DNA of 40,095 bases from Acidimicrobiia bacterium (GTDB lineage: Bacteria > Actinomycetota > Acidimicrobiia > Acidimicrobiales > SZUA-35), in contig QIKW01000145.1 of NCBI GenBank assembly GCA_003231975.1, positions 1 through 40,095 on the forward strand, read 5' to 3'. The stretch's first letter is position 1; each line of letters opens with the position of its first letter. The translations under genes and the position numbers were made by a program. This document shows positions 7,480 to 13,902 of the stretch, one piece after another. The notes under the pieces are model-generated. The model saw nothing but the letters and a program-made list of their open reading frames with translations, was not told the origin of the DNA and ran no database searches.

Positions 7480-9576
7480 TCAGGAACCGGGAGTTGGGGA
7501 GCCGATCACGCCGTTGCCGTTGTAGGACAGGCCTCTATTGCTGCCGGAATAGGTGACGATGTAGGTGGCGTCGAAACCCAAGATTGGATCAGGCTCGCCC
7601 GACCACTCCAAGGCGTTGCTGCCAGCGAAAGCAGGGTCTCGCCAGCCGATGTAGTCAACAACGTCGCCGTTGCTGTCAAGCAGCCACAGGTCATCGCCGG
7701 TTGATTCCAAGGTTGGTCCTGAGCTGTCGAAGAACTCAAGCGTTCCCCCCGGGACCGACATGGTTGAGCCGTCAACCCAGATCACGGCTCTCGCCCCTGG
7801 CTGGAGGGTCGAGGGATTTTCGTTGAAGCCCTCGGTGAAAGATTGCTTGTTGCCGTTGCCGGGAATCCAGGGCCCGTCCTGAATTCCAGTTGGCTTCCAG
7901 TCTTGAAGGGTGAACGCAGCCAGGTCGATGGCGCTGCCGGTCATGTTCTGAATCTCGATGAACTCAGCGGTGCTGCCGTTTGTCTGATGCAAATACTCGG
8001 TGATCACCAGATCTCCGGCGAACGGAGACAGAGCCAGCCCGTCCCCGCCGGTTGGCAACGTCGTTGTGGTAGTCGGCGCTGTGGTTGTTGTGGTGGTTGG
8101 CGCCGAAGTGCTGGTCGTGGTTGGCGCCGTCGTTGTTGTGGTTGGGCCCGCACTGGCGGAGGTGGATGTGTTCCCGGCCGAAGTTGAGGTTGTGGCCCCA
8201 GGAAGAGCGCTGGTTGATGAAAAGCTGGACGAAATGCTGGAGGTTGAGCCCGACTGGTCTTTCACGGTAGTGCTGCTGGCCAGCCCTGGGCCGGGCTGCG
8301 TGCCGGGCTGCGCCGCCGGGTTGGGATTGCTGGTTGGAGCCAAAAGTGGCAGGGATGCTGGAGGTTCTTGCTGGTCGGCCGGAAGGCTGGAAGCCACAAC
8401 CATCACGTCGCCAACGGCCTGCTCTGATGACTCTGAGAGAACGCCAAGCGGGCCCCCAACGCTTCCCAGCAAGGCGGCAAGGCCCGCAGTAATCCCGGCA
8501 ACCCCGGTAACTGCTGCTGCGGCAACGGCGCCTGCGGGAATCACTGGCCCCAGGCCGGTAGCTCCCGGCCCTGAAACGTTCAGCAGCCAGCTCAGCGGGC
8601 CCATCACCAACCGAAGCCTGCCGAGCCCGATGTTCAGGAACGCCCGAACCACGTGAGGGTCAAACTGAGATCCTGCGCAGGCTGCTATCTCGGCCCTGGC
8701 TTCCTCGGAGGGTCTTGGCTTCTTGTAGCTGCGGGTCGAGGTCATAACGTCGAATGCGTCTGCAACCGAAACGATGCGGGCCGCCAAGGGGATCGACTTT
8801 GCCGCCAGGCCCTCGGGATAGCCCGCTCCGTTCCAATGTTCGTGATGGTGCCCAACAGCGTCGACCCAGTCTCCCAGCCAAGGCCGAAGCGGCTCGGCCA
8901 GCTTGGCGCCAAGTGTTGTGTGGGTCTTTAACACCTCCCATTCGGCTTCGGTTGGGAGGCCTTCCTTGTTCAGAATTTCCGCCGGAACGTGAAGCTTCCC
9001 TATGTCGTGAATAAGTGCCGCCCAGCGGAGCCGGTCTTGGTCGGCTTGAGGCAGGTTCATTTCCTCCGAAATCAGGTCGGTGTAGGCCCTAACCCGCTCG
9101 CAGTGGCCCCTGGTCAAGCGGTCGTGGGTGCTTAGGCCAGCAACCAACTCAAGCAGCGAAGCGGCGTGATCGGTTGTGTTGGTTCCGAGGCCACTTTCAA
9201 CAAGGTCATCTACCCGGCGCTGAAGTTGGCGGGTGGTGCCGGTTCTCATTGCGACGCTGAAGCGACTTGGCGCCTTGTCCGGGAACACCAGGGACAGTTT
9301 CAGCAGCGCAGCCAATGGCAGGAGTTTGCGGGCCAGCCGGTCAGCCGCAAACAGAACGATGGCAGACGCAGTCAGCAGCGCTGCCATCCAAACCACGAAC
9401 GGCACACCAACTCTGTCCTGGGGCCAGGTGCGAACAAACCACAGCGAAGCCACGAACGACACGCCAGCAGGGGCCAGCATTGCCAGCATTCGAAGTGATC
9501 TGGCCAGCCACGGGCGGCTGGCCCACCGCACGTCTTCTTCGTTCGCCGTTGGCCTGATTGGCCCGTCTTCGCCCAT
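7480..9576 (-). CDS. Membrane HD-GYP phosphodiesterase with extracytoplasmic lamin-tail domain
   Basis: A 698-residue multidomain protein. Hydrophobic segments at about 31-50 and 57-77 are followed by an HD-GYP domain (about 145-315) with the metal motif HDIGK (H190, D191) and HHHEHWNGAGYPEG (243-256). HD-GYP domains usually hydrolyse cyclic di-GMP or related dinucleotides. A Gly/Ala-rich hydrophobic stretch (about 340-372) should cross the membrane again. A Ser/Thr/Pro-rich linker (about 430-508, runs of TTTTT) follows, and then a lamin-tail-like beta domain (about 520-695: LVITEYLHQTNGSTAEFIEIQN, then WVDGS and VVDYIGW). Topology would put the enzyme inside and the lamin-tail domain outside. 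A GGGNCNNNNGNCCC-like site lies 59-72 nt upstream. Start ATG 9576. Confidence 0.87.
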   Translation of the reverse strand: MGEDGPIRPTANEEDVRWASRPWLARSLRMLAMLAPAGVSFVASLWFVRTWPQDRVGVPFVVWMAALLTASAIVLFAADRLARKLLPLAALLKLSLVFPDKAPSRFSVAMRTGTTRQLQRRVDDLVESGLGTNTTDHAASLLELVAGLSTHDRLTRGHCERVRAYTDLISEEMNLPQADQDRLRWAALIHDIGKLHVPAEILNKEGLPTEAEWEVLKTHTTLGAKLAEPLRPWLGDWVDAVGHHHEHWNGAGYPEGLAAKSIPLAARIVSVADAFDVMTSTRSYKKPRPSEEARAEIAACAGSQFDPHVVRAFLNIGLGRLRLVMGPLSWLLNVSGPGATGLGPVIPAGAVAAAAVTGVAGITAGLAALLGSVGGPLGVLSESSEQAVGDVMVVASSLPADQQEPPASLPLLAPTSNPNPAAQPGTQPGPGLASSTTVKDQSGSTSSISSSFSSTSALPGATTSTSAGNTSTSASAGPTTTTTAPTTTSTSAPTTTTTTAPTTTTTLPTGGDGLALSPFAGDLVITEYLHQTNGSTAEFIEIQNMTGSAIDLAAFTLQDWKPTGIQDGPWIPGNGNKQSFTEGFNENPSTLQPGARAVIWVDGSTMSVPGGTLEFFDSSGPTLESTGDDLWLLDSNGDVVDYIGWRDPAFAGSNALEWSGEPDPILGFDATYIVTYSGSNRGLSYNGNGVIGSPTPGS

Positions 9577-10585: not shown

Positions 10586-11650
10586 CTATCGAGCCTTGTA
10601 CCCAGACCAGCTCTGCTGGTCAAAGTCATAGAGCTTGCAGTCCCTAGTGGTTCGCAAATAGCGGCGCATGGTTAAGCGTTCCCAGCCGACATGGCTGGGG
10701 TACGCGGCGGCCAGGTGCTGGGCTGCTTCGTCCAGGTGGTAGCAGGGAATTCGTGGGTCGACGTGGTGCGGTACGTGCACAAAGATCGAATGGAAAAACG
10801 GGCGGGCCAGCCACGGCAGCTTCAGGATTGTGGTGCTCTCAAGTTGGCCGCGGACCTTGGTCCACCCGCGCCGGCTGGCCCATGGCAGATCGGTGCTGAT
10901 GTGATGGACATAAACAGTGAAGCCAATGGCCCAGGTGAAGAGAAGAAACGGCACCACTAGGAGTTTCACGATCATCCACCCCGCTCCGGGCACGGTGCCA
11001 TAGCGGACCCAGCCTGTGGCACCAACGGCCCCAATCAGCAAAACAGTAAGCCGAGCGAGCCAGCGCCGATCGCTCTGGATGCGTTCGGTCCACTTGGCAG
11101 GCGGCTCGGTCAGGCGCACCATTTGCTGCCACCACACCACCCTCATGTAGTACGCCCCTGCTCCAAGGCAGGACCACTCGATGCGATGGGCCAGTTTCCC
11201 GAGTCGGCCACTGGCCTCGTATCGCTCGCGGGTGACCGGGTGCCAGACGAAGTCCATTCCTTCTCGGGCTGTGTAGCGGTGGTGGATGTGGTTGTGGCCA
11301 AGAGCCCAGCTGGCCCTGATGTGCTGGCTGGGGATCATCAGCCACCGGGCAACGCGGTCGTTCGTTTTGCGCCCCGAGAAGAGTGCCTGGTGAGCGGCGT
11401 CGTGAGCCAGCACGAACATAGCGGCAACGCTCAGCCCGGCCAGAACCCAAAGAGGCAATACCAGAAACCAGCGGTCGGTGAAGGCCAGTGCGACTACCGA
11501 TGCCAGCCAGAGGGTCACATCTCGGGCGACCAGAAGCCATGCCCGGCTGTTCGACTTCTCCAAGCACGAAGCCGGAATCACAGCCATGGCATCCCGCAGA
11601 GTTGCAGGCAGCGGTTCTGGGGCGGGGGACGGCAATGGTGCAGGGGGCAT
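10586..11650 (-). CDS. Membrane fatty acid desaturase/hydroxylase
   Basis: A 354-residue integral-membrane di-iron enzyme of the fatty acid desaturase superfamily. All three His clusters are visible: HDAAH (83-87), HNHIHH (119-124) and HVPHH (292-296). These sit between hydrophobic segments (about 45-80 and 200-250). The family inserts double bonds or hydroxyls into acyl lipids, carotenoids or related substrates using O2 and a ferredoxin or cytochrome b5 donor. The divergent operon encodes a ferredoxin-reductase that could supply electrons. Start ATG 11650 is used; an internal ATG at 11587 would remove a Pro-rich leader and is an alternative. Predicted DevR boxes lie in the divergent promoter region. 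Confidence 0.88.
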   Translation of the reverse strand: MPPAPLPSPAPEPLPATLRDAMAVIPASCLEKSNSRAWLLVARDVTLWLASVVALAFTDRWFLVLPLWVLAGLSVAAMFVLAHDAAHQALFSGRKTNDRVARWLMIPSQHIRASWALGHNHIHHRYTAREGMDFVWHPVTRERYEASGRLGKLAHRIEWSCLGAGAYYMRVVWWQQMVRLTEPPAKWTERIQSDRRWLARLTVLLIGAVGATGWVRYGTVPGAGWMIVKLLVVPFLLFTWAIGFTVYVHHISTDLPWASRRGWTKVRGQLESTTILKLPWLARPFFHSIFVHVPHHVDPRIPCYHLDEAAQHLAAAYPSHVGWERLTMRRYLRTTRDCKLYDFDQQSWSGYKAR

Positions 11651-11843: not shown

Positions 11844-12866
11844 GTGAGCGAGCTAACAGACACAGCGGAGGCCAAGGACCCGCCCGTTACCGAACAACCC
11901 AACGTCTTTCCCTTGAGCTGGCACAAGGGCACCGAGAAGATGGAGGAGATCTGGGCATCGGCCCAGCGCGAAACTTGGGATCCGGCCCATCTCCCGTGGG
12001 ATACCTTTGACCCAAGCTCCTACACGTGGGAGGAACGAGAAGCCATCGCCTACTGGTGGACGTTGCTTTCGGTGTTTGACGCATCTGCTCCCCCTGTCTT
12101 TGCCGCCGCTCTGATTAAGACCTATGAAGATCATGAGGAAGACGCAGTTCGCCGCTGCTTCTTTTCGGTAACACGCGATGAGCAAAATCACGAACAGGTC
12201 TGCGGCCTCGCAATAACCAAGCTGCTGGACCACCCAAACCCGTTGCTGTACGAACCGCGATCCGAGCTTGGCCTTCTGGCCCAGCGAAACGCAAAGTGGC
12301 TCTACTACAACGGAGGCCGCTACTGGGAGGGCTACAAGAAGGCCGTTCCCAAGTACCCGCTGGCCGTTCTCTTCTCATCCTTCCTGATGGGCGAGATCGC
12401 AGCGGCAACGATCTTCCAGCAAATGGCTAGCGGAGCACGAGAGCCGGTGTTCGAAGAGGCATTCAAGAACATTGGCCGCGACGAGGGCCGCCACATGGCG
12501 ATTTGCCTCGCACTGATGGAGCGGGACTACCCAAAGCTTGACGTGTCCGACAAGGCGCTCATCACAAAGCAAATTCGGGCCGGATACCTCTTTCTCTCGG
12601 CGGTGCTATACGAGCCTCCGCCCAACTTTTGGGAGCTCCCGGACGATTTCATCGAGGTTCAGAGGCGATGCGAGGAAACTTGCCGCAACGCCGGTTTCTT
12701 CATTCCCGAGGTGGAGGCCAAACGAGAGAACTGGCGGCAGGCAATTCTGAACCTCAAAGGTGTCCTGGATCGCTACAACGTTCCCTTTCCAGCCATTCCC
12801 GAGGTTGGAATCAGCGGCGAAGAGGTTTCCGACATTGACCTCGAAGACATCATCCCGGTTTTCTGA
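11844..12866 (+). CDS. R2-like ferritin-fold di-iron protein
   Basis: A 340-residue helical protein of the ferritin-like/R2 superfamily. A full six-ligand di-metal set can be read: D79 (VFDASAPP), E113 and H116 (RDEQNHEQVC), E184 (LMGEIAAAT), E214 and H217 (RDEGRHMAIC). Both ExxH motifs are followed by Cys four residues after the His. In ribonucleotide reductase R2 the radical Tyr sits four residues after the first His; here that position is C120, so this is unlikely to be an ordinary R2. An O2-dependent oxygenase or oxidase is more likely. GTG 11844 is preceded by GAGGAG with 6-nt spacing. The reductase gene begins 1 nt after its stop. The exact subfamily is not recognised. Confidence 0.82.
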   Translation: MSELTDTAEAKDPPVTEQPNVFPLSWHKGTEKMEEIWASAQRETWDPAHLPWDTFDPSSYTWEEREAIAYWWTLLSVFDASAPPVFAAALIKTYEDHEEDAVRRCFFSVTRDEQNHEQVCGLAITKLLDHPNPLLYEPRSELGLLAQRNAKWLYYNGGRYWEGYKKAVPKYPLAVLFSSFLMGEIAAATIFQQMASGAREPVFEEAFKNIGRDEGRHMAICLALMERDYPKLDVSDKALITKQIRAGYLFLSAVLYEPPPNFWELPDDFIEVQRRCEETCRNAGFFIPEVEAKRENWRQAILNLKGVLDRYNVPFPAIPEVGISGEEVSDIDLEDIIPVF

Positions 12867-12867
12867 G

Positions 12868-13902
12868 GTGGATAGCGCGCTGATCCGGCTGGCGCCGTCG
12901 ACCAAGACGGTCCAGTGTTTGGCGGGCGACACCGTGCTGGCTGCGCTGGAACGCGAGGGGTTCGCCCTTCCGAACAACTGCCGAGCGGGGGCTTGTGGGG
13001 AATGCAAGACGAAGCTCCTGGCAGGCGAGGTTGACCAGGGCACCGTTTTGGACATGGCGCTGACCACTGAGGAACGGGCCGAGGGCTACCGCCTGATGTG
13101 CATGGCGAAGCCGGTGACTGAGGTCGTCGAAATCGAGTTTGGATCCCTCGAGGCGAAACCGAAGCTGTTTCCGCCTCGGGATCGCGTGCTTTGCGTTGTG
13201 ACCGATGCGGTGCAGCGAACGTCGACCATCAGAGAAGTCCGCATCCGACCCGTCGGGGAGCCGCTGCGATTTTGGCCAGGGCAGTACCTTCTAGTCGGCG
13301 ATTCCCAGGCTGGGGTGTCTCCTCGGCCGTACTCAATCGCGAATGCTCCCCGGCCCGACGGCGAGATGAGTTTGCTGGTTGCGCTGGTTCCGGACGGCAA
13401 GACCAGCGGCTGGCTCCATGCGGGGCTGCAGGTAGGGGATCGCATCACGGTTGGCGGCCCCTACGGCACCTTCATTGGTGATCCCGGAACCAGCACTCCT
13501 GTGCTGTGCCTGGCCGCTGGATCTGGCCTGGCTCCCATTTTGGCCCTCACCGATGCTGCCCTCCGGCGCGGTTTCGACAAGCCGGTAACCGTGCTGTTCT
13601 CGGCTCGCTCCGAGGCCGACGTGTTTGATCAGGGCCTGACCTCCTGGTGGGCGGCGAAACACCGGCGGTTCACCTTCCTCACAACCTTTACCGGCCTGCC
13701 CGCTGGGGCCGAGGCGAGCGGCTCGCTTGTTGGCCGGATTCCCGACGTGTTGCCAGGGCTCATGCCCGACCTGGCTGATCACGCCGTGTACATCGCCGGG
13801 AGCCCTGAGTTTGTCGACGCCTGCTCTGAGGCGGCACTTGGACTGGGGGCCGAGCAGGGTCGCCTGCACGTTGAGCGCTACGTAGCCGCGTTGACCGCTT
13901 AG
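12868..13902 (+). CDS. Oxygenase reductase: [2Fe-2S] ferredoxin-FAD-NAD(P) domains
   Basis: A 344-residue electron-transfer component. The N terminus is a plant-type ferredoxin with the cluster ligands NNCRAGACGECK (C38, C43, C46) and C78 (LMCMAKP). A FAD-binding domain follows with RPYSIANAP, then an NAD(P)-binding domain with LCLAAGSGLAPILAL. The order ferredoxin-FAD-NAD matches reductases of bacterial multicomponent mono- and dioxygenases. GTG 12868 begins 1 nt after the stop of the di-iron gene (TGA-G-GTG), so the two are almost certainly translated together. It probably reduces that protein and possibly the nearby desaturase. Its TAG stop overlaps the TAA of the convergent kinase gene (13899-13902). 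Confidence 0.9.
   Translation: MDSALIRLAPSTKTVQCLAGDTVLAALEREGFALPNNCRAGACGECKTKLLAGEVDQGTVLDMALTTEERAEGYRLMCMAKPVTEVVEIEFGSLEAKPKLFPPRDRVLCVVTDAVQRTSTIREVRIRPVGEPLRFWPGQYLLVGDSQAGVSPRPYSIANAPRPDGEMSLLVALVPDGKTSGWLHAGLQVGDRITVGGPYGTFIGDPGTSTPVLCLAAGSGLAPILALTDAALRRGFDKPVTVLFSARSEADVFDQGLTSWWAAKHRRFTFLTTFTGLPAGAEASGSLVGRIPDVLPGLMPDLADHAVYIAGSPEFVDACSEAALGLGAEQGRLHVERYVAALTA

Follow-up and report, generated by a model that had tools for sequence, protein, structure and literature searches.

Two adjacent genes in a 40,095-nt stretch of DNA (the window; contig QIKW01000145.1 of the Acidimicrobiia bacterium assembly GCA_003231975.1) probably encode a two-component di-iron epoxidase that would attack the ring of an aryl-acetyl-CoA, usually phenylacetyl-CoA, and would replace or duplicate the PaaABCDE enzyme. 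Among the routes by which aromatic compounds are broken down, aerobic phenylacetyl-CoA catabolism is a central one, and its attack on the ring is attributed to PaaABCDE. The proposal is based on the domain make-up of the two proteins, the predicted fold, the conserved metal ligands, the coupling of the two genes, their genomic association with phenylacetate (paa) genes, and the complementary absence of PaaA. We infer the substrate, the epoxidation, the electron route, and any low-oxygen preference of the pair. The paa context across genomes is the main point of the analysis; it is supported by the comparisons below and is invisible from a single sequence. No description of the di-iron family was found in the open-licence literature, and an account elsewhere is possible.

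The gene pair and its relatives

The features of the pair are given below by their positions in the window.

11844 to 12866, + strand: R2-like di-iron protein, proposed oxygenase component; GTG start, 340 aa
12078 to 12080, + strand: codon for D79, proposed metal ligand in the first helix; from the alignment, assigned by position
12180 to 12191, + strand: E113-Q-N-H116, first ExxH metal-binding motif; from translation and alignment
12201 to 12203, + strand: codon for C120, at the position of R2 Tyr122 and sMMO Cys151; equivalence by motif register
12393 to 12395, + strand: codon for E184, proposed ligand in the third core helix; from translation and alignment
12483 to 12494, + strand: E214-G-R-H217, second ExxH metal-binding motif; from translation and alignment
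12504 to 12506, + strand: codon for C221, at the same offset past the second ExxH as C120 past the first; from the alignment
12868 to 13902, + strand: reductase, GTG start, 344 aa; N-terminal 2Fe-2S ferredoxin domain, then FAD and NAD domains

The di-iron start at 11844 is backed by homologues over a longer mechanical ORF from 11706, and the TGA stop at 12864 to 12866 leaves a gap of 1 nt before the reductase gene. Searches with Pfam and NCBIfam placed the reductase nearest to BenC and MmoC, with scores far short of either cut-off.

When 84,980 species genomes were scanned, relatives of the di-iron protein turned up in 308 stretches. The best 80 of these 308 relatives were 74–82% identical to the window protein; they belong to Alpha-, Beta-, and Gammaproteobacteria, Bdellovibrionota, Actinomycetota, Myxococcota, and other groups, and so close a resemblance between phyla points to one conserved function passed on by horizontal transfer. 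The pair is rare in the window's own phylum, where the window genome and one other had it among 396 sampled. Among 61 related genomes, four carried a di-iron relative, one of them only the distant protein L004. The window protein belongs to an Acidimicrobiia group, its nearest relatives being L006 and L007 (~82–84% identity); it is 75–77% identical to the proteins of Sedimenticola and of genome G514. An oxygenase-type ferredoxin-FAD-NAD reductase 1 nt downstream had been part of the original prediction; it was found there, and a reductase was the next gene on the same strand in 72 of the loci of the best 80.

The predicted ligand set consists of D79, E113, H116, E184, E214, and H217. All six ligands had been said to be visible in the sequence and this was borne out, the one in the first helix being Asp, not Glu. 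In nine sequences reaching down to 32% identity, the other five residues were invariant, and position 79 was Asp or Glu, with Glu once, in L004. The two motifs read E113-x-x-H116-x-x-x-C120 and E214-x-x-H217-x-x-x-C221. Both Cys residues were invariant in all 47 aligned close relatives (74–82% identical to the window protein) and were kept in eight of the nine diverse sequences. The sole loss was again in L004 (positions 1489–2541, − strand), a 32% relative from the same taxonomic family as the window, with Ala at the matching offset. Because both Cys are replaced in L004, the Cys pair is a mark of the family and not of the whole superfamily. No reductase was seen adjoining the L004 gene; an enoyl-CoA hydratase gene and a MaoC-like gene lie nearby. 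The original prediction that Cys occupies the position of the R2 radical Tyr, and recurs at the same offset after the second ExxH, stood. The oddness attached to the first of these Cys residues was weakened by precedent: the α chain of sMMO contains DEIRHTHQC, the same ExxHxxxC pattern. As read from the helix register, C120 and C221 may face the metals.

Profile searches gave few matches to the di-iron protein. At E ≤ 1 there was no match to the R2 and R2lox small-subunit models (Pfam, NCBIfam), to the Pfam BMM hydroxylase model, or to PaaA (TIGR02156 and Pfam PaaA_PaaC); BoxB was absent from the NCBIfam matches at the same threshold, and nothing in NCBIfam came near any cut-off. Alignment with hhalign gave probabilities of 0.5% against PaaA and 0.15% against PaaC. 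The Pfam AurF match fell below its gathering score (15.7 bits vs. 29.6). Pfam Rubrerythrin exceeded its own marginally (23.9 bits vs. 22.8) over residues 182–244 only, around the second ExxH; this marginal match would place the protein at the superfamily level only. PHROGs gave no family assignment, and the PDB yielded no convincing sequence match to the single protein or to a 47-row profile.

The AlphaFold2 model (pLDDT 82.5, pTM 0.83) had an R2-like fold. It aligned with R2lox, VlmB, and related proteins at Z-scores of 19 to 20 over ~260 residues with 11–14% identity, and with MMOH of sMMO at Z 17.5. Together the predicted model and the alignment contain the R2-like fold with the ligand order D/E, ExxH, E, ExxH. 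No BoxB or PaaA row was present in the VIA-align top 50, which is no evidence against a fold match. From the domains, fold, and profile results we concluded that this is an R2-like di-iron protein with its own reductase, from a family that has no curated model in the libraries used. The profile searches and the structure prediction proposed with the original prediction thus agreed with its assignment of a two-component di-iron oxygenase of an unassigned subfamily, as did the coupling to the reductase.

Phenylacetate genes and the absence of PaaA

Genes of the paa pathway were found within 8 kb of the pair in 38 of the loci of the best 80 of 308 relatives; the other 42 had none within that distance, some of them owing to contig ends. 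One such arrangement is that of Sedimenticola selenatireducens BK-1 (L097), where paaX is followed by reductase, di-iron gene, and paaZ on the other strand, and then by paaF, paaG, paaH, paaJ, and paaK. PaaZ, PaaF, PaaG, PaaH, and PaaK of this locus reach their NCBIfam equivalog cut-offs, and PaaJ reaches that for 3-oxoadipyl-CoA thiolase; PaaX just misses its own (261.9 bits vs. 264.6). The pair lies between paaZ and paaX in a pathway that is otherwise complete, and PaaA had no match anywhere in this genome. A second such cluster, in G514 (L092), encodes PaaY, PaaX, reductase, di-iron protein, PaaN, PaaH, PaaK, and PaaJ, also with no PaaA. In the PaaA-less clusters the di-iron gene was the sole oxygenase gene seen. 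Elsewhere, for example in Marinospirillum and Vitreoscilla, a single cluster often contains both the pair and PaaABCDE. In Vitreoscilla this is on plasmid pVF1, with the pair placed after paaIKABCDE and paaZ; there, as in annotated plasmid copies generally, the di-iron gene is labeled as a hypothetical protein, and its partner as a 2Fe-2S protein.

Other neighbors recur in particular lineages. In seven Azospirillum loci (L051, L057, L059, L066, L070, L072, and L081), the di-iron gene is immediately preceded by a gene, between it and PaaX, for a BLUF blue-light-sensor-like protein of ~160–200 aa, named by eye. In four actinobacterial loci (L002, L003, L032, and L039) a gene for a metallo-β-lactamase-like hydrolase, also named by eye, is directly upstream of the pair.

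Fifty-four carrier genomes were searched for PaaA, which exceeded its cut-off in 37. Sixteen were counted as PaaA-less, 14 having no match at all and two only a weak paralogue (~69 bits); one further carrier, with a PaaA fragment, was left out of this count. The 14, which include S. selenatireducens (G483), had not even the weak cross-match expected of PaaC. All 16 encoded PaaZ or PaaN, and 14 encoded PaaK, which was absent from G139 and G452; many of the genomes are drafts, and only G139 among the 16, itself without PaaK, is known to be a single contig.

The 82 Azospirillales genomes gave a similar result. The di-iron gene was present in 29, all of which had PaaN, and PaaN was present in 31. 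Both PaaN-containing genomes without the di-iron gene had PaaA, and all five PaaN-containing genomes without PaaA had the di-iron gene, so that none of the 31 was without both. Within the genus Azospirillum, no PaaA was found in A. halopraeferens DSM 3675. The association of the di-iron gene with PaaN gave a Fisher value of 4e−20, uncorrected for relatedness. Three Azospirillales genomes counted as PaaA-less have a weak PaaA-like ORF beside the di-iron gene. An orphan PaaA_PaaC-family protein of ~272 aa is encoded in L040 (5561–6376, − strand), L047 (5567–6382, − strand), and L096 (6644–7462, − strand); in L040 it scored 83.6 bits with Pfam and only 70.6 bits with TIGR02156. In these three loci the orphan and a small ORF are divergent from PaaX and the di-iron pair, and no PaaABCDE is present.

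As a control, full-length PaaZ was found in 15 of 369 sampled Gammaproteobacteria. Besides the center genome, all 14 had PaaA, and no di-iron gene was found in the surroundings of their PaaZ genes. On a tree of 92 di-iron proteins, the absence of PaaA amounted to eight changes, at least six of which were forced by well-supported branches. Published phenotypes of strains outside the survey of the pair fit the proposal: Azospirillum lipoferum 4B and Azospirillum sp. B510, which have paa genes, grow on phenylacetate, and A. brasilense strains do not (PMC3899980).

A recent survey (2026) recommended PaaA and PaaC as genomic markers of the phenylacetyl-CoA pathway and noted rare configurations without core epoxidase subunits (PMC13186573). 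We give an even chance to the broader proposition that a single-subunit R2-like phenylacetyl-CoA epoxidase has displaced PaaABCDE several times, and that surveys based on PaaA and PaaC miss such species.

The copy in the window and alternative functions

The neighbors of the pair in the window are not paa genes. The same genome has a PaaK-PaaA-PaaD-PaaB-PaaC cluster on a separate contig (C6); PaaZ and PaaN gave nothing over thresholds in this genome or in the related genomes G009 and G017. A MarR-type regulator gene adjoins the pair in four actinobacterial loci (L006, L007, L009, and L038), and this regulator has a homologue in the paa cluster of the window genome that is 49% identical to the L038 protein. 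In the window organism the pair would most plausibly act as a second aryl-acetyl-CoA oxygenase, an assignment less sure than that for Sedimenticola.

Several features near these genes were recorded. On contig C6 (L089, 12000–30000) the gene order is PaaI, MarR, PaaK, PaaA, PaaD, PaaB, PaaC; no PaaE was seen adjoining the cluster, and the pair's reductase might also serve PaaABC. In the window, the gene divergent from the di-iron gene (10586–11650, − strand) encodes a homologue of fatty acid desaturases, with 88.9 bits in Pfam; this homologue is DesA-like but far below the NCBIfam cut-off. Positions 7480–9576 (− strand) encode a 698-aa protein with an HD domain (HD_5), a long Ser/Thr/Pro-rich linker, and a C-terminal Lamin Tail Domain. 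We rejected a function read from the window neighbors (fatty acid desaturase, methyltransferase, sensor kinase, and regulator) because close relatives of the pair do not have those neighbors.

A paralogue subfamily bears on the choice of substrate. Proteins of 48–60% identity were found in Variovorax, Nonomuraea, and two Azospirillales genomes. At the loci of Variovorax and the Azospirillales, the neighbors are MaoC, enoyl-CoA hydratase, and thiolase-like proteins together with a second reductase; most of these loci have in addition a PaaK-like ligase, a branched-chain ABC transporter, an indolepyruvate:ferredoxin oxidoreductase, or a PaaN homologue. In L086, L093, and L094 a 50–60% paralogue occurs with MaoC, enoyl-CoA hydratase, and thiolase-like proteins, and in two of them with indolepyruvate:ferredoxin oxidoreductase, which suggests that the pathway there handles another aryl-acetyl-CoA, one derived from an aryl-pyruvate. 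Such clusters seem to be sister pathways that act on other aryl-CoA substrates, and their neighbors indicate that the family follows aryl-acyl-CoA pathways.

Since PaaA is also present in 37 of the 54 carriers, the pair must often be redundant and might act on another substrate. It could oxygenate a different aryl-acyl-CoA, such as hydroxyphenylacetyl-CoA or indoleacetyl-CoA, share only the lower paa enzymes, and so widen the substrate range of a cell that keeps PaaABCDE. The paralogue clusters, with their indolepyruvate:ferredoxin oxidoreductase and separate ligases, point the same way, as do homologues (named by sequence resemblance) of homogentisate dioxygenase and fumarylacetoacetase in the Azospirillum loci. 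Against this, PaaA-less clusters contain PaaK, PaaG, PaaH, and PaaZ above curated cut-offs with the di-iron protein as the only oxygenase seen, and the 74–82% identity of the best 80 speaks for a single substrate kept throughout the main clade; we regard this explanation as possible but doubtful. The frequent coexistence with PaaABCDE in one cluster would also suit an accessory di-iron oxidase that removes oxygen or repairs dead-end epoxide or oxepin products of the pathway instead of attacking the ring. Such a role does not account for genomes in which the paa pathway is complete and the pair is present but PaaA is missing, and we give it only a small chance.

For the window copy, the paa link might be incidental and the pair an unrelated two-component hydroxylase or desaturase of lipid, hydrocarbon, or secondary metabolism. 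The divergent desaturase homologue and the presence of PaaABC elsewhere in the genome are consistent with this. The identity of the window protein to its Acidimicrobiia relatives (82–84%) and to the Sedimenticola and G514 proteins (75–77%) argues otherwise, as does the MarR regulator shared between the four actinobacterial loci and the window genome's paa cluster; we regard this explanation as very improbable.

Proposed reaction and comparison with known systems

Judging from the domains, the reductase would take electrons from NAD(P)H and pass them through its FAD and 2Fe-2S cluster to the di-iron site of its 340-aa partner. Once reduced, this site would activate O2 and epoxidize the ring of the aryl-acetyl-CoA, phenylacetyl-CoA in most relatives; this step corresponds to the gap that the pair appears to fill. 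According to the known biochemistry of the pathway, the product, 1,2-epoxyphenylacetyl-CoA, would be passed to PaaG and to PaaZ or PaaN (PMC4498308). The pair would replace the unrelated multi-subunit PaaABCDE in some bacteria and be additional to it in others, including the window's organism.

If the pair does the job of PaaABCDE, species without PaaA may still run the phenylacetyl-CoA pathway. It would be a new and simpler start of aromatic breakdown and would offer a simpler two-protein epoxidase for study and biocatalysis. PaaA, BoxB, and the di-iron family would then be a clear case of convergence among di-iron aryl-CoA epoxidases.

In its proposed reaction and place in the pathway the pair resembles PaaABCE, which is also a di-iron oxygenase with six Glu/Asp/His ligands and a 2Fe-2S/FAD reductase. 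Neither sequence nor profile comparison showed the di-iron protein to be significantly similar to PaaA or PaaC, and the pair, unlike PaaABCDE, has one oxygenase subunit with no PaaB, PaaC, or PaaD partner. The ferredoxin domain is N-terminal in the pair's reductase, whereas it is C-terminal in PaaE (PMC4498308).

R2lox and other R2-like oxidases, and the azoxy synthase VlmB, share the predicted fold and ligand order. They differ in their low identity (11–14%), in the dedicated reductase found here, and in the Cys that by motif register occupies the position of the R2 radical Tyr. sMMO (MmoX and MmoC) shares ExxHxxxC at that position, the domain order of the MmoC/BenC reductases, and the fold (Z 17.5); no β or γ subunit or regulatory protein was recognized among those neighbors of the pair that were given a name.

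BoxB is a single-polypeptide di-iron benzoyl-CoA epoxidase with a separate reductase, BoxA (PMC4498308), and in this arrangement BoxAB resembles the proposed pair. BoxA carries two 4Fe-4S clusters, whereas the pair's reductase would carry 2Fe-2S and FAD, and published BoxB is inactive on phenylacetyl-CoA (PMC4498308). By the tests made the pair is a member of neither system, yet it should work like BoxAB or PaaABCE.
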